Positions 15,109-28,114 of a DNA stretch of 64,000 bases are shown here, in pieces. Position 1 is the stretch's first letter. Every line of letters begins with the position of its first letter. A program made the translations under genes and the position numbers. Origin of the DNA: Flavobacteriales bacterium (GTDB taxonomy: Bacteria; Bacteroidota; Bacteroidia; Flavobacteriales_G; Salibacteraceae); NCBI GenBank assembly GCA_013204105.1, contig JABMOM010000040.1, positions 62,001 to 126,000 of the forward strand. The letters run 5' to 3'. The notes below the pieces were generated by a model. That model was not told the DNA's origin, searched no databases, and saw only the letters and a list, made by a program, of their open reading frames with translations.

Positions 15109-15645
15109 ATGGAATTAAAGGTTGGAGATACCGTACGCTTGATCGACGACCAAGGCCAGGGCATTGTTTGCTCTTTGTCAGGAAACGAGGCCATGGTAGA
15201 GATCGATGGCATGGAATTGCCCTTTACGACGAACCAACTGGTAAAGGTGGAGCACGACGACCTGATCGCGGACCTGGAGGATCACGTCGAGCTCTCTGCA
15301 AAAGACAAGCTCCACCGGGTGCATGGTCGCGACAAACTCAGAGAGTTGGAACCCGTGTCACAAGCGGTATACGAACTCGACCTGCACATCCATGAACTGC
15401 TCGACCATTACGCCAACATGAGCAATGGAGAGATCCTCCAATACCAAATGGGCCGATGCCGGAGTTTCGTGCGTGAAGCCATGGACAAGCGCTTCGGGAA
15501 AATCGTGTTGATACACGGTGTGGGTGAAGGCGTATTGAAACATGAGATCCACAAATACCTCGACCAACTCACGCACATTGAGTACCACGATGCACCTTAC
15601 CGCACCTATGGTTATGGGGCTACGGAAGTCATCATTCACCGCTGA
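15109..15645 (+). CDS. Smr-domain protein (DUF2027-like)
   Basis: 178 residues: an N-terminal KOW/SH3-like segment (MELKVGDTVRLIDDQGQGIV) and a C-terminal Smr domain with ELDLHIHEL and the HGVGEGVLK loop. Smr domains act on nucleic acids as nickases or RNA endonucleases; this short stand-alone form has no settled function. The ATG at 15109 matches the conserved family start; an in-frame start at 15070 would place the promoter box inside the gene. TAATTTCG at 15095-15102 leaves only six bases before the ATG, so the transcript may be nearly leaderless. Ends 20 bases before the rnpB transcript. Confidence 0.85.
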   Translation: MELKVGDTVRLIDDQGQGIVCSLSGNEAMVEIDGMELPFTTNQLVKVEHDDLIADLEDHVELSAKDKLHRVHGRDKLRELEPVSQAVYELDLHIHELLDHYANMSNGEILQYQMGRCRSFVREAMDKRFGKIVLIHGVGEGVLKHEIHKYLDQLTHIEYHDAPYRTYGYGATEVIIHR

Positions 15646-15652
15646 TTAGCAG

Positions 15653-15660
15653 TACCTTTG
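15653..15660 (+). promoter_or_regulatory. -7 promoter box of rnpB
   Basis: TACCTTTG exactly fits TAnnTTTG and stands five bases before the first base of the P1 helix of RNase P RNA, fixing the likely box-to-start spacing in this genome at four intervening bases. Confidence 0.8.
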
Positions 15661-15664
15661 CACT

Positions 15665-16037
15665 CCAGATCGTTCTGTCGCTGTCTCGCTTCGGCGGGAT
15701 GGAGGAAAGTCCGGACAGCTCAGAGCACCGCACCCTGTGAAAGCGGGGGTGGCTTAAGCGAAAGCGATGGTCATCAGAAAGTGCCACAGAGAACAATACG
15801 CCTATGTTCTCACTTCGGTGAGAGCAGGTAAGTGTGAAAACGTGAGGTAAGAGCTCACGCGCTGTGTCGGTAACGGCACATTGGGTAAACCTTGCGGGCT
15901 GCAAGACCATGTAAACCTGGGTTTGAGGGCTGCTCGTCCGATTCGTCTGACGAAGCCCAGGAGGGTAGGTCGCGTAGATAAATGGCAGGAGCCCTTCGTT
16001 TCTGACGGAGGATACAGAATCCGGCTTACAGATCTGG
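15665..16037 (+). ncRNA. rnpB: RNase P RNA (bacterial class A)
   Basis: About 373 nt. The 5' CCAGATC (15665-15671) pairs with the 3' GATCTGG (16031-16037) as helix P1. The universally conserved GAGGAAAGTCCGGAC block is at 15702-15716, AGTGCCACAGAGA near 15780-15793, GTAAACCTTGCGGGCTGCAA near 15883-15903, and the closing ATACAGAATCCGGCTTACAG (conserved region V, P4 partner) ends at 16030. It forms the catalytic part of RNase P that trims tRNA 5' ends. It has its own -7 box upstream and a terminator downstream. Confidence 0.97.
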
Positions 16038-16044
16038 GACATAT

Positions 16045-16083
16045 GGCCCCGGCTTCGGTTTCGATCGAAGTTCGGGGCCTTCT
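16045..16083 (+). terminator. terminator of rnpB
   Basis: GGCCCCG (16045-16051) pairs with CGGGGCC (16073-16079), with a further CTTCG / CGAAG stem inside, followed by TTCTTCC. It begins eight bases after the rnpB P1 helix. Confidence 0.75.
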
Positions 16084-16191
16084 TCCTAGGTAGTAGGCAG
16101 TTGAAGGAGTGCGCAGTCGGCAGTGGTATATGGTGCGAAAGGACAACACTCGATGCTTGTAGTTCCATTTTTCTTATAGAGAACGTGATCT

Positions 16192-19954: not shown

Positions 19955-19962
19955 TACATTTG
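19955..19962 (+). promoter_or_regulatory. -7 promoter box of the ECF sigma operon
   Basis: TACATTTG, exact TAnnTTTG match, 19 bases before the TTG start at 19982. The sigma gene therefore appears driven by the housekeeping sigma rather than by the GGGGTA/TTGTC promoter found at its presumed targets. Confidence 0.6.
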
Positions 19963-19981
19963 TACACCAACCTAGACCACC

Positions 19982-20563
19982 TTGTCCTTCATCGACTCCA
20001 GATCTGAATTTGAACGCGCCTTCCGAAGCCACTACAAAGGCTTGGTAATTTACGCTACACGTATGTTGCGCGATCAGGACAAAGCAGAGGATGCCGTGCA
20101 GCAGGTCTTTGTCTCTCTGTGGGAGAAACGTGATCAGATCGAAGTGCAGGGCAATGAAATGAGCTACCTCATGCGCAGCGTGCACAACGGCTGCCTCAAC
20201 CAGATCAAGCACGAAAAAGTAAAGTTAGACCATGCCGCGCACGAAATGCACACAGGTGAAGAGGCACACGTAGAAGATGCCTTAGAACAAGAGGAATTTC
20301 GACAGAAAGTGACAGAAACGGTGAAGGGCTTGCCTAGCCAATGCCGCAAAATCTTCTTGATGAGTCGCATTCAAGGAAAAAAATACCACGAGATCGCAGA
20401 AGAATTGGAATTGAGCGTAAAGACCGTTGAGAATCAGATGGGCAAGGCTTTGCGGATCATGCGTACGTCATTGCACGAAGAAGTGAGGGCCACGATGCGG
20501 GTCATTAAAACAATTTTATGGTTGACCATAGGGGTAAAGACTGCCTCAGTTGTCATTCAATAG
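19982..20563 (+). CDS. ECF RNA polymerase sigma factor
   Basis: 193 residues with sigma-70 region 2 (HYKGLVIYATRMLRDQDKAEDAVQQVFVSLW) and region 4 (LPSQCRKIFLMSRIQGKKYHEIAEELELSVKTVENQMGKAL), of the type that pairs with FecR anti-sigma factors in Bacteroidota. A short C-terminal hydrophobic tail (IKTILWLTIGVKTASVVIQ) is unusual for a cytosolic sigma. The start is TTG: the first internal ATG would delete part of region 2, and the TTG follows a TAnnTTTG box at proper distance. Followed three bases later by fecR. Probable targets are the twin promoters at 23614-23664 and 25687-25737. Confidence 0.92.
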   Translation: MSFIDSRSEFERAFRSHYKGLVIYATRMLRDQDKAEDAVQQVFVSLWEKRDQIEVQGNEMSYLMRSVHNGCLNQIKHEKVKLDHAAHEMHTGEEAHVEDALEQEEFRQKVTETVKGLPSQCRKIFLMSRIQGKKYHEIAEELELSVKTVENQMGKALRIMRTSLHEEVRATMRVIKTILWLTIGVKTASVVIQ

Positions 20564-20566
20564 GAA

Positions 20567-21559
20567 ATGTCTACGCAAAACGACCATATCGACTTCGACC
20601 TCATCGCCAAATATTTGGCCGGAGAAGCTGCTGCGTCTGAGGTTCAAGACCTCGAAAAACGCATGGAGGCGGACGCTGACTTCCAAAAGGAAGTGCATGC
20701 CATGCGCTCACTTTGGGACGCCGCCGGAGATGCTGTCATCGAAGTGGACGCAGAGGCAGGCTGGGAGAAGGTTTCTTCTTCTATAGGTGCAGAGGTCCTT
20801 TCCATCGACCGTCCAAGCCGAGCCAATCGCTCTTGGCTCTTGGCCGTTGCCGCTGCTGTAGTGTTGGCGGTTGCCATTCCATCTGTGCTCTGGTTGACCC
20901 AGAACAGCATCGAGATGATGACCCTCGAAAGCGGGGGGGCAATGGCGAGCCTCGACCTGAGTGATGGTTCACACGTTTCGCTTCAAGAAGGATCCAGCAT
21001 CCACTACCCCGATAGATTCGAAAGCGATCAGCGCGAGGTTTGGCTGGATGGTGTTGGTTTTTTTGAAATTTCTGCCGACAAAGAGCACCCCTTTATTGTG
21101 CACACCTCTCACGGCGATGTGCGCGTTGTTGGAACGGCCTTCGAGGTCGACACCCGCATGGTTGAAGAAGGAATCCTCGTAGAGGTGCAGGAAGGCATCG
21201 TGGAGGTAAGCGACTCAAAAACAAACCTCAACCAGCGGGTTGAGGCTGGCGAAGCGGTCAAGCTCTCGACCAAAACCCAAACGATTGAGTTCACAGAGCA
21301 TTTAGAGCCAGATGCCTTCTTTTGGAAAGACCGTACCATTCGCTTCAAGAAGACGGAATTGGAGCAGGTGATCAAAACATTAGAAGACGCCTATGGTGTT
21401 CAAATAGCGTTAGGATCCGAAAACATTGCTGGGTGTGAACTCACCGCTACGTTTAAAGACGAGACCATCGAATCCATCCTAGACATCATTTCTACCACGC
21501 TCCGACTAGAATTAACCGAAATCGATGGCGACTACACCCTCTCGGGTGAAGGCTGCTAA
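20567..21559 (+). CDS. FecR-type anti-sigma factor with DUF4974
   Basis: 330 residues. A short cytosolic N-terminal domain (DHIDFDLIAKYLAGEAAASEV), one membrane helix (about 86-108, SWLLAVAAAVVLAVAIPSV), a periplasmic FecR domain (about 125-220; DGSHVSLQEGSSIHYP, VWLDGVGFFEI, VRVVGTAFEV) and a C-terminal DUF4974 domain (about 250-325). It should hold the sigma factor at the membrane until a periplasmic signal arrives, classically through the signalling domain of an outer-membrane receptor. The protein encoded next carries an STN domain, the natural partner fold for this signalling, though it is not a standard receptor. Confidence 0.93.
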   Translation: MSTQNDHIDFDLIAKYLAGEAAASEVQDLEKRMEADADFQKEVHAMRSLWDAAGDAVIEVDAEAGWEKVSSSIGAEVLSIDRPSRANRSWLLAVAAAVVLAVAIPSVLWLTQNSIEMMTLESGGAMASLDLSDGSHVSLQEGSSIHYPDRFESDQREVWLDGVGFFEISADKEHPFIVHTSHGDVRVVGTAFEVDTRMVEEGILVEVQEGIVEVSDSKTNLNQRVEAGEAVKLSTKTQTIEFTEHLEPDAFFWKDRTIRFKKTELEQVIKTLEDAYGVQIALGSENIAGCELTATFKDETIESILDIISTTLRLELTEIDGDYTLSGEGC

Positions 21560-21564
21560 ATGCC

Positions 21565-23604
21565 ATGAAACGGATCGTCTTCATCACCGCGATTTGGCTC
21601 CCCTCACTCCTCACCTTTGGGCAATGCTTAGAAGAACGCGTTAGCCTTTTTTGCACGCAATGCTCCATTGACGAGGCCTTGGATCGCTTAGAGGCACAAG
21701 TGTCCTGCTCCTTCAGCTACAACGCGCGCAATTTTGATGCTGCGGAATTCGTAGACCTGCAATTGGATGACGTAAAACTCCGTGAGGCCGTCAAAAAGGC
21801 CACCGCTGACCGGTACCAGATCAAAGAACGCGGGCGGCATGTCATCCTCATTGAAAAGCGAAACCTTCAGGAGCAAAAAAGCAAGAAGCAGGAATACATC
21901 ATCGAAGGTTACATCCGCAATTCGACTACGGGACAAGTGGTTCAAAATGCGACTGTCTACGCCGTAGAGAACAAGTATTCTGCCCTTAGTGATGCCGCGG
22001 GTTACTATCGCATCCAACTCGTGACCGACGAGGAGCAATTTGGCCTCAGCTACAGTCGTCAGTCGTTCTTTGATACCATTATTGTGGTGAGTCCAGCCAT
22101 TCAAGAGGTGCGACAAGACATTCAGCTCATGCCCCATTCCGTGGCCCCTCCCACCATTCCAACCATGCACGCAGAATTACCTCAACGCGTACGCGAAGTT
22201 GAGCAATTGCCCATGGTAAAACTCCTCGTTCCCGACGTGCAGGCCCAGCGTGCCATGAACCTTGAGTTTTTAGAGGATATTCCGGTACAGTTCTCGTTGA
22301 CACCTAGCATGGGAACGAACAAGCTCACTAGTGGTATGAGCAACAACCTGTTTTCGGTCAACCTTCTCGGAGGCTATAACGCAGGGGTCAGAGGCCTAGA
22401 GGCCGGCGTTGGCGTGAACATCATCCGCCAAAACGTAACGGGCATTCAAGGAGCAGGCATTGGAAACATTGTAGGAGGTGAGGTACGAGGTATACAAGCA
22501 GCTGGCATCTTTAACAACGTACGTGGGTCCGTTAAAGGACTTCAAGCGGGCGGGATCTACAACATCGTACTCGATACCATCATTGGCTGTCAAGCTGGGG
22601 GCGTGTTCAATATTCTCAACGGAAGCATCACAGGAGCTCAGATAGGTGGCGTCTTCAACATTGCAACCGAAAGCATGTCCGGCCTGCAAGCATCCGGCGT
22701 GTTTAACATCACGCAACAGAATGTGAAATTTGCCCAAATCGCCGGGGTCTTCAACCTCGCTGGAACGGTTACAGGGTTTCAAGCTGCAGGCCTGTTCAAC
22801 CACGCCAATGACAGCGTCACCGGAACGCAGCTCGCTGGATTTTCCAACACCGCCATGAACGATGTGGAAGGGGTTCAAATCGCAGGTTTTGGAAATCTAT
22901 CAGGTGGAGAGCTGTCTGGAGTCCAATTGGCTGGCTTCGGGAACTATGCGCGCGACGTAAAAGGGGACCAATATGCTGGAGCCATAAATATCAGTCGTGA
23001 TGTAAACCGTCAGGTCTCGGGCTTGATCAATATCGGCCGAACCGTAGATAAATTGCAATTGGGCTTTATAAACTTTTCAGATTCAGCTGCCCGCTCATTC
23101 GGCTTCCTCTCATTCTCGCGCAAGGGCGTTAACTCAATCGATCTTTTTGCAGACGAGGTCAGTATGGTCAACGTTTCTTACCATACCGGTAGTAAATTCT
23201 TTTACAACATCCTGCAGGTTGGATTTGGCTCGTACACGGGTCTTTCGATTTTCAGTTATGGCTACGGCTTTGGTACAGACATAGGAGATCCCGAAAATCG
23301 TATGCACCTGCACCTAGAGTTCCTTGTGCGACAACTCGACCATTTGGCCAAACCGAAGCATGTATTAAACCTCAACCTCAAGTTCGACCCGAGCATTTCC
23401 ATCCGATTGGGTAAAAAACGACCCACGTTGGTATTTGGACCATCCTTCAACCTTCTCTTCAGAAATGGCCTGCTCCAAAATACAGATACGGACAACGGAG
23501 CTGTACTGGTTGACATCCCAAGTCAGCCCCCTATTTTCAAGCCGATGGAGGGTGTATTTGACGGTCGGGCATGGCTCGGAGGCCGCTTGGGACTTCGGTT
23601 CTAA
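21565..23604 (+). CDS. STN-domain protein with 16-residue GxQxAGxxN repeats
   Basis: 679 residues. A signal peptide (1-19), an STN (secretin/TonB short N-terminal) domain (about 25-95), a carboxypeptidase-regulatory-like beta domain (about 108-180), a linker, then about fifteen tandem repeats of a 16-residue unit (consensus G-[IV]-Q-x-A-G-[FV]-x-N, then seven variable positions; about 268-520). A C-terminal beta-rich part (about 520-679) probably forms outer-membrane strands and ends in LGLRF. The repeats resemble those called LA_2272-type surface repeats. No TonB plug is visible, so an STN domain here is odd. It directly follows fecR by five bases, so it is probably the signal input or output of the sigma switch. 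Confidence 0.75.
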   Translation: MKRIVFITAIWLPSLLTFGQCLEERVSLFCTQCSIDEALDRLEAQVSCSFSYNARNFDAAEFVDLQLDDVKLREAVKKATADRYQIKERGRHVILIEKRNLQEQKSKKQEYIIEGYIRNSTTGQVVQNATVYAVENKYSALSDAAGYYRIQLVTDEEQFGLSYSRQSFFDTIIVVSPAIQEVRQDIQLMPHSVAPPTIPTMHAELPQRVREVEQLPMVKLLVPDVQAQRAMNLEFLEDIPVQFSLTPSMGTNKLTSGMSNNLFSVNLLGGYNAGVRGLEAGVGVNIIRQNVTGIQGAGIGNIVGGEVRGIQAAGIFNNVRGSVKGLQAGGIYNIVLDTIIGCQAGGVFNILNGSITGAQIGGVFNIATESMSGLQASGVFNITQQNVKFAQIAGVFNLAGTVTGFQAAGLFNHANDSVTGTQLAGFSNTAMNDVEGVQIAGFGNLSGGELSGVQLAGFGNYARDVKGDQYAGAINISRDVNRQVSGLINIGRTVDKLQLGFINFSDSAARSFGFLSFSRKGVNSIDLFADEVSMVNVSYHTGSKFFYNILQVGFGSYTGLSIFSYGYGFGTDIGDPENRMHLHLEFLVRQLDHLAKPKHVLNLNLKFDPSISIRLGKKRPTLVFGPSFNLLFRNGLLQNTDTDNGAVLVDIPSQPPIFKPMEGVFDGRAWLGGRLGLRF

Positions 23605-23664
23605 TTTTTTTTTCATCCCGCATAGGGGTATTTTATTTCATGGTTGTCATTCTAGTGTAAGACA
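23605..23664 (+). promoter_or_regulatory. two-block ECF-type promoter, copy 1
   Basis: A T run, then CATCCCGCATAGGGGTA (23614-23630), a 13-base spacer, TTGTCATTCTAG (23644-23655) and GTAAGACA. GGGGTA and GTC are 15 bases apart, as for -35/-10 elements of ECF promoters. TTGTC and GACAA at the ends form an inverted repeat. It lies 31 bases before the GIN-domain lipoprotein gene. Copy 2 is at 25687-25737 with the same blocks and an unrelated spacer. Confidence 0.7.
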
Positions 23665-23694
23665 AAAACAATAACACATTAAACACTAGAACAC

Positions 23695-24420
23695 ATGAAA
23701 ACTAATCTCATCATCGCTACAGCTTTCGCAGGACTCTCTCTTATCTCTTGTAACAAAGACAAATTCCCTTATTGCATCCGAGCTAACGGGAACATCATCG
23801 AAGAGACACGCACCTTGACCGAATTTGAAGACGTAGACTTCAACATGCCCGGTAAGCTTTACATAAAGCAAGACACCACGATCAAGAACGCAACACTCAC
23901 CATTAAGACAAGTGAAAACATCATGGACCGGATTGAAACGGATGTAAAGAGCAACACGCTTAAAATCACCGACAACCAATGCATCCGCAAGCTGAAGACC
24001 TTTGAAGTGTACCTCACCGTCAAAGACCTGGAGGATGTTCGCCTCAACGGCTCTGGAGACGTGATTACCGAAAACACCATCGTAGCCGACGCCCTTTCCT
24101 TCAGCATCAACGGCTCAGGAAGCGTGGATGCTTCAGTGAAATCTAAGGAACTTTTACTCGACATCAACGGAAGTGGCGACATGGACGTGGAAGGTCAGAC
24201 CAATGACATCGACATCGACATCAATGGCAGCGGCAATGTGCACGCATACGATGTGGACGCGATCAATGGCTATGTGGACATCTCTGGAAGCGGAAACTGT
24301 GAGATCAACGCATCCGACGCACTCGACGTGGGCATCTCTGGAAGCGGCAATGTATACTACCTAGGATCACCTCGCGTCACTGTGAACACATCCGGTTCTG
24401 GTAGCATCCAGGCTAAGTAA
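23695..24420 (+). CDS. GIN-domain (DUF2807) lipoprotein
   Basis: 241 residues with a lipoprotein signal peptide (lipobox LISC, Cys19) and a DUF2807 beta-helix domain. The domain shows the characteristic NGSGD/SGSGN turns, repeated seven or eight times (NGSGDV, NGSGSV, NGSGDM, NGSGNV, SGSGNC, SGSGNV, SGSGSI), and an early LTEFEDVDFNMPGKLYI strand. Such domains are called putative auto-transporter adhesin heads; function is not established. It is the first gene behind copy 1 of the ECF-type promoter and is followed after 21 bases by a repeat protein, forming a probable two-gene transcript. Confidence 0.9.
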   Translation: MKTNLIIATAFAGLSLISCNKDKFPYCIRANGNIIEETRTLTEFEDVDFNMPGKLYIKQDTTIKNATLTIKTSENIMDRIETDVKSNTLKITDNQCIRKLKTFEVYLTVKDLEDVRLNGSGDVITENTIVADALSFSINGSGSVDASVKSKELLLDINGSGDMDVEGQTNDIDIDINGSGNVHAYDVDAINGYVDISGSGNCEINASDALDVGISGSGNVYYLGSPRVTVNTSGSGSIQAK

Positions 24421-24441
24421 TCACCCCTTACAAACACCACC

Positions 24442-25677
24442 ATGAAAACAAGGAAGATCATCTTGACTGGGATACTTATGTCCATAGTTTTCCAGTCGAT
24501 CGCCAACGAACCGGACAGTGCCAACGCTACAGCGGCAGATAGTGTACGACCATTTCAAGTCACGTTCATCACGCCGTTCGGAACCAACGGATACCTGAGT
24601 ACCACCTCCGTCAACAACATCAGCCTGAACATCATTGCAGGCTACAACGGAGGACTGCAAGGAATCGAAGTCGGTGGAGTAGCAAATGTGCTCCAGCACG
24701 ACATGGAAGGCATCCAATGCGCAGGCTTCGCCAACCTCGTTGCCGGTAACATGCAAGGAATCCAGACAGCTGGATTTGCCAACCTGGTCGGAGGATCTTC
24801 AGATGGATTCATGGTCAGTGGCTTCACCAATCATGCTGCAAAAGGTGGACAGCTCGTGCAGATCGCAGGATTCTCGAACCAGGCCATGGGCACCTTCACG
24901 GGTGCTCAGGTGGCCGGGTTCGGAAACCTCGTCACCGACAGCGCAGAAGGCGTGCAGGTAGCAGGATTCGCCAACTTTGCCGGAGCAGGATCTGACGTCA
25001 CACAAGTTGCTGGATTCATGAACTCAGCACGCGGAAGCGTCACCGGCGGACAAGCCGCCGGGTTCTTGAACCAGGCCTACGACATCGATGGAATCCAAGC
25101 CAGTGGCTTTCTGAATATCGCCCGCAACGTACACGGAGTGCAAATCGGCTTCATCAACGTAGCCGATTCATTCAGCGCTGGAGTGCCCATCGGATTTCTA
25201 AGCCTCGTAAAGAACGGACATCGGCAATTGCTCCTGCAAGCGAACGAATTGCAGTGGGGCGAAGTACAACTCCATACAGGTGTGGCAAAGTTGTACAACG
25301 TCTTTGCAGCATCCTTGAAACCAATGGGCGATCAGCCGGGATGGGCCTTTGGCTACGGACTGGGGACTACCTTGCTCAACCGTGATGTGTCTGACATCCG
25401 CATGGAAGCGGTGGTCTACCACATCAATGAAGGCGAGTTTTGGACAAGCGCGCTAAACAACCTTGTTCGGATCACTGCTCGCTATGAGTTCCATCCTAAA
25501 GGAAATGGCTTCGGAATCAGCGCAGGTCCTTCTTTGAATTTTCACACCAGCAGCAAGTCAGACTTCTACGGTGATCCCTTTCATTCTAAAACACCTCCCT
25601 ACTCCATCCTTTCAGACGAAGGGCTGGCCTTGACCCGCAATTTCTGGGTCGGCGGACAGCTCGGAGTAACCTTCTGA
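24442..25677 (+). CDS. 16-residue GxQxAGxxN repeat surface protein
   Basis: 411 residues; signal peptide (1-22, ending SIANEP). About eleven to twelve 16-residue units (GIQCAGFANL, GAQVAGFGNL, GVQVAGFANF and similar) span about 70-245, then a beta-rich C-terminal part ends LGVTF, consistent with an outer-membrane strand end. It is a paralogue of the STN-bearing protein at 21565 but lacks the STN and carboxypeptidase-like domains; both share the GFINVADS/GFINFSDS transition and the GFLSL segment. It probably shares the transcript of the GIN lipoprotein. Function unknown; cell-surface or outer-membrane location inferred. Confidence 0.75.
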   Translation: MKTRKIILTGILMSIVFQSIANEPDSANATAADSVRPFQVTFITPFGTNGYLSTTSVNNISLNIIAGYNGGLQGIEVGGVANVLQHDMEGIQCAGFANLVAGNMQGIQTAGFANLVGGSSDGFMVSGFTNHAAKGGQLVQIAGFSNQAMGTFTGAQVAGFGNLVTDSAEGVQVAGFANFAGAGSDVTQVAGFMNSARGSVTGGQAAGFLNQAYDIDGIQASGFLNIARNVHGVQIGFINVADSFSAGVPIGFLSLVKNGHRQLLLQANELQWGEVQLHTGVAKLYNVFAASLKPMGDQPGWAFGYGLGTTLLNRDVSDIRMEAVVYHINEGEFWTSALNNLVRITARYEFHPKGNGFGISAGPSLNFHTSSKSDFYGDPFHSKTPPYSILSDEGLALTRNFWVGGQLGVTF

Positions 25678-25686
25678 TCTTTTTTT

Positions 25687-25737
25687 CATCCCGCATAGGG
25701 GTAATTAAAATCAGAGTTGTCATTCTAGGGTAAGACA
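25687..25737 (+). promoter_or_regulatory. two-block ECF-type promoter, copy 2
   Basis: The 17-base block CATCCCGCATAGGGGTA (25687-25703) is identical to copy 1. A 13-base spacer with different sequence, TTGTCATTCTAG (25717-25728) identical to copy 1, and TAAGACA follow. It stands 44 bases before the TonB receptor gene. Confidence 0.7.
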
Positions 25738-25780: not shown

Positions 25781-28114
25781 ATGAAAACCTCCCTATTCTT
25801 CCTTTCGATCCTTCTTTGCTTTACGCAATCACTCTTTGCTCAATCGCCTACCCAGACCATTCGTGGAAAGGTGATCGATGAGCAGAGCAACGCTCCCCTG
25901 ATCGGCGCTAACGTGGTCGTCATCGGCAGCCAGCCCTTCATAGGCGCAAGCACAGACCTAGACGGCAACTTCCGAATGGACAATGTGCCCGTAGGACGCC
26001 AAACCCTTCGCATCTCTTACCTCGGATACGAGCAGCGAGAAATGCCCAACGTACTCGTCAATTCCGGAAAGGAAATGGTCCTGGAGATCCAACTCATCGA
26101 GTCCATCGAGACCCTGAGAGAAGTGGTCGTTGAAGGCACGACTGAGCGCGGCGAGCACCTCAACCAAATGGCCACCGTTAGTGCACGCACCTTTACAGTA
26201 GAAGAGACCAAGCGTTATGCAGGTGCCATTGATGATCCTGCCCGTATGGCCTCTAGTTATGCAGGAGTAGGTGTAGTCGACGGAGACAACGACCTCGTAA
26301 TCCGTGGCAACTCTTCTCGTGGAATGCTTTGGAAAATGGAAGGCATTGAAATTCCTAACCCGAACCATTTTAGTGAGCAAGGAACCAGCGGCGGACCGAT
26401 CAGCATGTTAAACTCTAACATGATGGGAACATCCGAATTCTATACTGGCGCCTTCCCCGCAGAGTATGGCAATGGCTTTTCAGGCGTCTTTGATATCAAC
26501 CTCCGAAAAGGAAACAATGAAAAACGCGAGTACAGTCTGGGCGTTGGTATCCTAGGAACGGATCTTTCCGTGGAAGGCCCTTTCAAGAAAGGATATGCGG
26601 GATCTTATTTGGTAAACTACCGCTACTCTACCCTCGCCGCCTTCAGCTTCATTGGATTGGACATCGTGGGAGACATCATCCCTCAGTTTCAAGATTTGAG
26701 CTATAACATTTACCTGCCCTCCAAAAAGTTCGGCACCTTCAGTCTCTTTGGCCTGGGCGGATCGGGCAATGTAGACGATCAATGGCGCACCGCTGACTAC
26801 GATTTTGATGAATACGTCCAAACCGACATGGGCGTAACCGGACTGACCCATTCCTACCTCATTGGAGACAAGACACTGATCAAGACGGTCGGCGCTGTAA
26901 TGGGAACCAAGCGTTTGTACAGCCAATTCCAAAGCGATACAGTAACCGGTAATCAAATACGCCAGAGCTTCGGAACCACAAATAAAGACATGGCCTTGCG
27001 CATCAATACCAGCGTAAAGCACAAATTCAATGCAAAGCACACCTTGAAGACAGGGCTCATCTATAACCACATCTTGTTTGACTATGATGAATTCTCGAAC
27101 TTCAGTGGCGACGGCAAGGAAACCCTTCTCGACGCAAAAGGTGACGGTGATCGCTGGCAAGCTTATTCACAGTGGCAGTATCGTGCTTCTTCACGATTGA
27201 CGTTCAACTCTGGTTTGCACTATACACACTTCGTCATCACCGATGAGCATCGTGTAGACCCACGTTTCGGTGCACGCCTCCAACTCAATGATGGATCTGC
27301 GTTGACTGCTGGCTTCGGTACCCACACCAAGTCATGGGACATGAGTGTATACTACGCGACTGGTATGGATCCAAACGGAGAAGAATACCGTCCGAACGAA
27401 AACCTGAAGATGCTCCAGAGCGCGCACTATGTATTGGGCTATGAGCGTCAGCTTACGCCAAACATCCACGCCAAGGTGGAGGCATACTACCAACAATTAG
27501 GCGGTGTACCAATCGAAGAGAACGACAGTTCTTATGTTTCTGCACTGAATTCTTACGGTGGCTACAGCAATGTGCCCATGGTAAACAAAGGAACCGGCAG
27601 CAACTACGGGATCGAGCTCACGGTTGAGCGTTACTTCCAAGATCAGTTCTTCTTCATGTTGACTTCTTCCCTCTTCAACTCCACCTACGTTGGAGGCGAC
27701 GGTGTAGAGCGCAACACGGCACACAACAACAACTACATCCACAACTTGCAATTCGGTAAGGAATGGAACATGGGCAGTCCTAAGCATGTCTTCGGAATCA
27801 GCGCAAAAGGCGTCTGGGCTGGCGGCAGACGAACGACTCCGATCTTATTAGCCGCTTCCAGAGATGCAGGTTACACCATCCGAGACAACACCCGTGGGTA
27901 CGAAGGACGATTGGCTGCGTACATCCGTCCCGACGTGCAATTGACATACCGCATCAATGGAAAGAAGGCTTCACACCTCATCAAGCTGGACGTACAGAAT
28001 TGCATCAACCGCGAGAATCCTTGGTACGACTACTACAACCCATATACAGACCAAATAGAATCAAGCTATCAGGTTGGCATCCTTCCCGTACTCGCTTATA
28101 AGATTCAATTCTAG
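25781..28114 (+). CDS. TonB-dependent receptor with carboxypeptidase-like N-domain
   Basis: 777 residues: signal peptide (1-20), carboxypeptidase-regulatory-like domain (about 24-110; IRGKVIDEQSNAPLIGANVVV), a TonB plug (about 125-235; DPARMASSYAGV, LVIRGNSSRGMLWKMEGI, AEYGNGFSGVFDI) and a large beta-barrel to the C-terminal phenylalanine. There is no SusD partner, so glycan uptake is not indicated. There is no STN domain on this receptor; the only STN of the locus is on the 21565 protein. Placed behind ECF-type promoter copy 2, and followed by a terminator. The transported ligand is unknown. Confidence 0.92.
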   Translation: MKTSLFFLSILLCFTQSLFAQSPTQTIRGKVIDEQSNAPLIGANVVVIGSQPFIGASTDLDGNFRMDNVPVGRQTLRISYLGYEQREMPNVLVNSGKEMVLEIQLIESIETLREVVVEGTTERGEHLNQMATVSARTFTVEETKRYAGAIDDPARMASSYAGVGVVDGDNDLVIRGNSSRGMLWKMEGIEIPNPNHFSEQGTSGGPISMLNSNMMGTSEFYTGAFPAEYGNGFSGVFDINLRKGNNEKREYSLGVGILGTDLSVEGPFKKGYAGSYLVNYRYSTLAAFSFIGLDIVGDIIPQFQDLSYNIYLPSKKFGTFSLFGLGGSGNVDDQWRTADYDFDEYVQTDMGVTGLTHSYLIGDKTLIKTVGAVMGTKRLYSQFQSDTVTGNQIRQSFGTTNKDMALRINTSVKHKFNAKHTLKTGLIYNHILFDYDEFSNFSGDGKETLLDAKGDGDRWQAYSQWQYRASSRLTFNSGLHYTHFVITDEHRVDPRFGARLQLNDGSALTAGFGTHTKSWDMSVYYATGMDPNGEEYRPNENLKMLQSAHYVLGYERQLTPNIHAKVEAYYQQLGGVPIEENDSSYVSALNSYGGYSNVPMVNKGTGSNYGIELTVERYFQDQFFFMLTSSLFNSTYVGGDGVERNTAHNNNYIHNLQFGKEWNMGSPKHVFGISAKGVWAGGRRTTPILLAASRDAGYTIRDNTRGYEGRLAAYIRPDVQLTYRINGKKASHLIKLDVQNCINRENPWYDYYNPYTDQIESSYQVGILPVLAYKIQF

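Follow-up and report, generated by a model that had tools for sequence, protein, structure and literature searches.

Two stretches of DNA carrying the same pair of sequence blocks stand beside the genes of an ECF sigma factor and a FecR-type anti-sigma factor in a Flavobacteriales genome, and the question is what reads them. It was suggested in an earlier note on this DNA that the blocks are ECF promoters of the regulon of the adjacent sigma factor. All comparative tests that could have spoken against this proposal supported it, and there is strong comparative evidence that the neighbouring sigma reads the repeated blocks as start signals. Taking all observations together, we consider it highly probable that their conserved core is the -35/-10 promoter of this sigma, in a surface-signalling circuit with negative feedback through fecR. 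Bacteroidota possess very large numbers of ECF/FecR pairs, few of whose promoters are known. With a -35/-10 consensus for one sigma family across the phylum, open to experimental test, the targets of that family could be read straight from genomes.

The locus and its two exact copies

In the window, by which we mean the whole stretch of 64,000 nucleotides that was analysed, the order is thiolase, sigma, fecR, STN-barrel gene, site, GIN, LA_2272, site, TonB receptor, with sigma and all that follows it on the + strand. The sigma gene (19982-20563, TTG start) encodes a member of the ECF family (TIGR02985, 165.8 bits against a curated cut-off of 126.4) with both sigma regions 2 and 4 detected (Pfam Sigma70_r2 and Sigma70_r4_2). 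It is preceded by TACATTTG at 19955-19962, the -7 box of a housekeeping (sigma-A type) Bacteroidota promoter, as the earlier note had claimed in giving this gene an ordinary box. A TAnnTTTG box was present in 7 of the 12 upstream regions of sigma examined in the window's family, and just 5' of sigma it is also found in G019, G021, G030, G004, G008 and the remnant locus of G013. The FecR-type anti-sigma gene follows at 20567-21559 (Pfam FecR 1.8e-14, FecR_C 1.9e-13). The third gene, at 21565-23604, encodes an outer-membrane protein whose AlphaFold model and structural matches indicate STN, CarboxypepD_reg, a beta-solenoid of LA_2272 repeats and an 8-strand barrel. Next come a head-GIN (DUF2807) lipoprotein gene (23695-24420; Pfam DUF2807 1.9e-42) and a gene for an LA_2272-type surface repeat protein (24442-25677), which matches NCBIfam NF047436 at 5.6e-4, under the curated cut-off, and resembles the repeat region of the third-gene protein. 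The TonB-dependent receptor gene occupies 25781-28114 (Pfam CarbopepD_reg_2 5.5e-19, TonB_dep_Rec_b-barrel 7.9e-18). Elsewhere in the window, a class A RNase P RNA (193.8 bits) lies at 15662-16044 on the + strand, and the long open frame at 15632-16168 on the opposite strand is for this reason probably spurious.

The paired blocks, CATCCCGCATAGGGGTA-N13-TTGTCATTCTAG, have two exact copies on the + strand, each 42 bases long, at 23614-23655 and 25687-25728. Shuffled sequences are expected to contain none, and these are the sole full matches in the 3.1-Mb genome. Gene order confirms that one copy precedes the GIN/repeat-protein pair and the other the TonB receptor, and the distance of 15 bases from GGGGTA to GTC was also correctly given. 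The spacers had been described as unrelated; in fact 7 of their 13 positions are identical (54%, P about 0.03 from composition). The likeness extends outside the blocks, to an upstream T-tract (12/14) and the downstream bases (15/20), and the second copy thus appears to have arisen from the first by duplication. Neither G019 nor G021 has a site immediately ahead of its TonB gene. The simplest reading of these alignments is that the GIN promoter was duplicated to the position ahead of the TonB gene in the lineage of the window. A smaller element, CATCCCGCA at 23614-23622 and 25687-25695, does not differ between the two copies, even though it is unconserved elsewhere and the spacer has diverged; recent duplication is the sole explanation we can offer for it.

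The same likeness raises the possibility that the identity of the copies is a functionless, neutral remnant, left by recent tandem duplication or gene conversion of paralogous gene ends. Each copy does lie directly 3' of a gene whose product has a related barrel domain at its end, and the matching T-tract, blocks and downstream bases, the partly identical spacers and the two relatives without a site directly before TonB would all fit such an event. A remnant would explain the shared CATCCC and TCTAG, but not why the core is conserved at a third site and in other genomes. Already disfavoured by this cross-genome conservation, it is in our opinion very improbable.

Conservation of the core and its link to the sigma family

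What is conserved among relatives is shorter than the 29 bases that match between the two copies: a core of TAGGGGTA-N13-TTGTCAT behind an A/T tract. In the window, the predicted promoter ahead of the GIN/LA_2272 pair spans 23623-23650 (-35 TAGGGGTA at 23623-23630, -10 TTGTCAT at 23644-23650), and that ahead of the TonB-receptor gene spans 25696-25723 (-35 at 25696-25703, -10 at 25717-25723). Across 31 aligned sites TAGGGG and TTGT are near invariant, the 13-base spacer carries little information, and an A/T tract lies 10-20 bases 5' of the core. Of 28 matches counted, 24 have a spacer of 13 bases. Conserved -35 and -10 blocks at fixed spacing with a free spacer, as in an ECF promoter, are therefore what the 31-site alignment contains. 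CATCCC, which the earlier note had included in a conserved first block, was rejected as part of the -35 element, being unconserved at the third site and in relatives.

The earlier note had proposed a scan of the complete genome. We ran a sequence-only profile of 21 sites, all from other genomes, on the whole genome of the window. It returned exactly three matches in 3.1 Mb (150 of 582 first-look candidates scored), with E-values of 6.2e-10 ahead of GIN, 1.2e-7 ahead of TonB and 2.7e-6 ahead of fecR, so that a profile trained on foreign sites finds only the sites of the sigma locus. The strict core likewise occurs three times in this genome, always in that locus.

In the 42 genomes of the order the strict core was found at 15 sites (reversed-pattern control, 0), and in 395 genomes of the class at 34 (control, 2). 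When a sigma relative is defined as a match at E 1e-22 or better, 7 genomes of the order have both sigma and core, 2 the core only, 6 the sigma only and 27 neither (Fisher P 0.0016). Most of the sigma-only genomes carry the -10 variants TTGTCTT, TTGTATT or TTGTTTT. The variant TTGTCTT occurs at both sites of G001 and at both sites of G008.

A set of 80 blind loci was retrieved by the sigma protein alone, with the motif disregarded, and scanned with a weight matrix that had itself been built from related loci. With a cut-off of 18 bits, 40 sites lay on the sigma strand and none on the opposite strand, with a single hit in the reversed control (1.35 Mb). Lowering the cut-off to 16 bits gave 44 sites, 40 of which precede a sigma, FecR, LA_2272-repeat, GIN or TonB-receptor gene; the next gene was sigma in 13 cases, LA_2272-type in 12, fecR in 7, GIN in 4 and TonB in 4. 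A site was present in 28 of the 40 blind loci with LA_2272-type genes and absent at the threshold used from the other 12, compared with 7 of 40 for the remainder (P 4e-6). Sites unlinked to the sigma gene also stand ahead of GIN, LA_2272 or TonB genes in G027, G034, G004, G008, G009 and G030. The core tracks the sigma family across Bacteroidota and is, at high score, always in sigma orientation.

These data bear on whether the blocks could instead be the operator of a separate DNA-binding regulator, with half-sites 13 bases apart, the gene of that regulator lying near these loci by chance. Good conservation and fixed spacing would suit an operator as well as a promoter, and an exact inverted repeat, TTGTC-N12-GACAA, overlaps the second block at 23644-23665. 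Yet the blocks are neither copies nor inverted copies of one another, and the 40 high-scoring blind sites all run along the sigma strand toward a gene, as a promoter requires. The sites are present in loci retrieved by sigma protein only, and GGGGTA, 15 bases, GTC and an upstream A/T tract form the arrangement of an ECF promoter. The inverted repeat was also the basis for the suggestion that a second regulator might act there. It is exact at the first copy, as had been described, but the second copy reads TTGTC...GACAC, and the repeat is missing from related sites. We therefore rejected it as a second operator, and regard an operator origin of the blocks as improbable.

It could also be argued that the promoters are served by another ECF sigma, the adjacent one standing there by coincidence. 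ECF sigmas are plentiful in Bacteroidota genomes, G000 has a second, distant one, and the strict core occurs without a close relative of the adjacent sigma in 2 of the 42 genomes of the order, G006 and G012. Against this, 13 blind loci have the core directly ahead of the sigma gene and others have it where sigma meets fecR, its presence tracks the family of the adjacent sigma, and in G006 it precedes the remnant of a TonB receptor. We give service by another sigma about the same small chance as an operator. Blocks in genomes lacking the sigma and away from related genes, the pattern that had been named as contrary to the adjacent sigma as reader, were not borne out among the 42 genomes of the order.

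Some individual loci deserve mention. In G006 (L119, 980-1374) a perfect core is followed by a signal peptide and then a TonB-like C-terminal end; this frame looks like a decayed receptor whose middle was apparently lost in frame. G012 (L118, 7580-7690) has a perfect core ahead of a 66-residue lipoprotein-like frame. Near-core sites precede a gene looking like a Crp-type regulator in G004 (L121, 6029-6676) and lie about 100 bases from an FKBP-like gene in G019 (L125, 6192-6721), and both genes are possible further targets. G013 (L090, 9148-9540) has lost the entire locus by a deletion that fuses about 65 N-terminal sigma residues to the last 60 codons of TonB, and the point of fusion carries a short shared sequence.

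The sigma/fecR junction and the sign of feedback

A third core, overlooked in the earlier note, lies at 20529-20556 (+ strand), within the 3' end of the sigma gene and ending 10 nt ahead of the fecR start codon. It came to light in a loose-pattern scan of relatives of the sigma gene, in which the blocks sit at the sigma ends, ahead of fecR, and it is conserved between sigma and fecR in relatives. Its phase relative to the sigma frame differs among them; it overlaps the stop codon in G008 and G034 and follows it in G004. It is thus the DNA that is conserved and not the protein, and protein-level conservation was rejected as the cause of this site.

This TAGGGGTA-N13-TTGTCAT copy is the predicted promoter of fecR. 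The core ends about 7-14 nt from the start codon at fecR genes and mostly 20 nt or more at other targets. With 10 nt between core and ATG, and assuming that transcription begins about 6-8 nt past the -10 element, the fecR mRNA of the window is probably leaderless or nearly so. Leaderless mRNAs make up just 5.5% in F. psychrophilum (PMC9723704).

The comparison supports the sites, their fixed geometry, their occurrence together with the sigma family and the conservation of the target genes; binding of sigma to the promoter, the start sites, contact between STN and FecR, the leaderless transcript and the sign of the feedback are what we infer in the circuit that follows. The ECF sigma of 19982-20563 would recognise TAGGGGTA-N13-TTGTCAT. 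Basal sigma(-fecR) mRNA would come from the housekeeping TAnnTTTG promoter, and FecR would keep the sigma inactive. The outer-membrane STN-barrel protein would sense a cue, and its STN domain would act on FecR as that of FecA does, releasing the sigma. Released sigma would then transcribe fecR and the STN-barrel gene from the promoter within its own 3' end, together with the GIN/LA_2272 pair and the TonB receptor. As the junction transcript would raise inhibitor and sensor but not sigma, a negative feedback loop is predicted.

Two layouts of this promoter exist. In the window's family the core lies behind sigma; in Chitinophagaceae, Cyclobacteriaceae and some others it lies ahead of it. The sigma gene of the window has only the TAnnTTTG box and the sigma-type core belongs to fecR, whereas the 13 blind loci mentioned above have the core before sigma. 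With the promoter behind sigma, feedback is expected on fecR alone. It is somewhat better than an even bet, in our estimation, that the shift of the promoter changes the sign of the feedback: an intragenic promoter would give a leaderless anti-sigma mRNA and purely negative feedback, and a promoter ahead of sigma positive plus negative feedback, with the STN sensor domain carried by a small outer-membrane protein of solenoid and barrel and not by a TonB transporter. A tree of the sigma proteins separates several clades for each layout, with support too weak to order the layouts in time. For the window and G021 its automatic labels overlook the junction sites, since in both the protein match runs on beyond the site. 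Two natural wirings of one circuit would be material for feedback experiments.

The sensor protein and comparison with known systems

The model of the third-gene protein (mean pLDDT 88) has an N-terminal STN domain, CarboxypepD_reg, the beta-solenoid of LA_2272 repeats and the barrel. STN was matched in 26 of 31 homologues, and in the window protein itself at 0.021, below the cut-off. Foldseek gave a weak match to the signalling domain of FecA (2d1u, E 0.57, probability 0.99), and FecA was not among the VIA-align matches for this model. The CarboxypepD_reg domain is like the SusC NTE (Z 12.3), and the barrel resembles those of OprF and OmpW (Z 11.7 to 13.1, OprF 13.1). On the evidence of the homologues, the operon thus encodes an outer-membrane protein with an STN domain, as in FecIRA systems. 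The TonB receptor (25781-28114) matched CarboxypepD_reg, plug and barrel, with no STN at E 0.01 in Pfam. An STN on a TonB-dependent receptor, as in FecA-type systems, was accordingly not found here, and the signalling domain would lie on a separate protein. The type of sensor so indicated has its signalling domain apart from any transporter.

With FecI/FecR/FecA of E. coli the locus shares an ECF sigma, a FecR-type regulator, an outer-membrane STN domain and a TonB-receptor gene as target. The fecIR genes of E. coli are Fur-regulated and lack autoregulation (PMC9249621), whereas fecR of the window has its own predicted sigma-dependent promoter; moreover, the STN domain that FecA carries is here on the small-barrel protein, off the TonB receptor. 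The LIC_12757/LIC_12756 pair of Leptospira interrogans also consists of an ECF sigma and a FecR-like regulator. This sigma is reported to be positively autoregulated, from a promoter with a CGT motif in the -10 region (PMC12155086). Autoregulation of sigma itself resembles the layout of Chitinophagaceae and Cyclobacteriaceae, while in the window the core is on fecR only. In Flavobacterium psychrophilum SM6, ECF-type promoters derived from mapped starts have a CGT box in the -10 region (PMC9723704), but there the targets are T9SS and Band-7 genes and the ECF/anti-sigma pair is a different one. B. thetaiotaomicron has many ECF/anti-sigma pairs, for some of which a TGTT element near -10 was proposed; in the parts of that study available to us there is no GGGGTA-N13-TTGTCAT consensus for -35/-10 (PMC12596196). 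A text search of the literature for GGGGTA and Bacteroidota ECFs did not find the motif, the main ECF re-classification lying outside its coverage and a prior in silico prediction being possible.

Regarding FecR, residues 290 and 330 are cysteines that are invariant in 14 of 14 aligned FecR proteins. The second lies in a Gly-x-(Gly/Ser)-Cys motif, at the C-terminus or a few residues short of it, and a disulfide between the two is possible, within the domain that would interact with STN.
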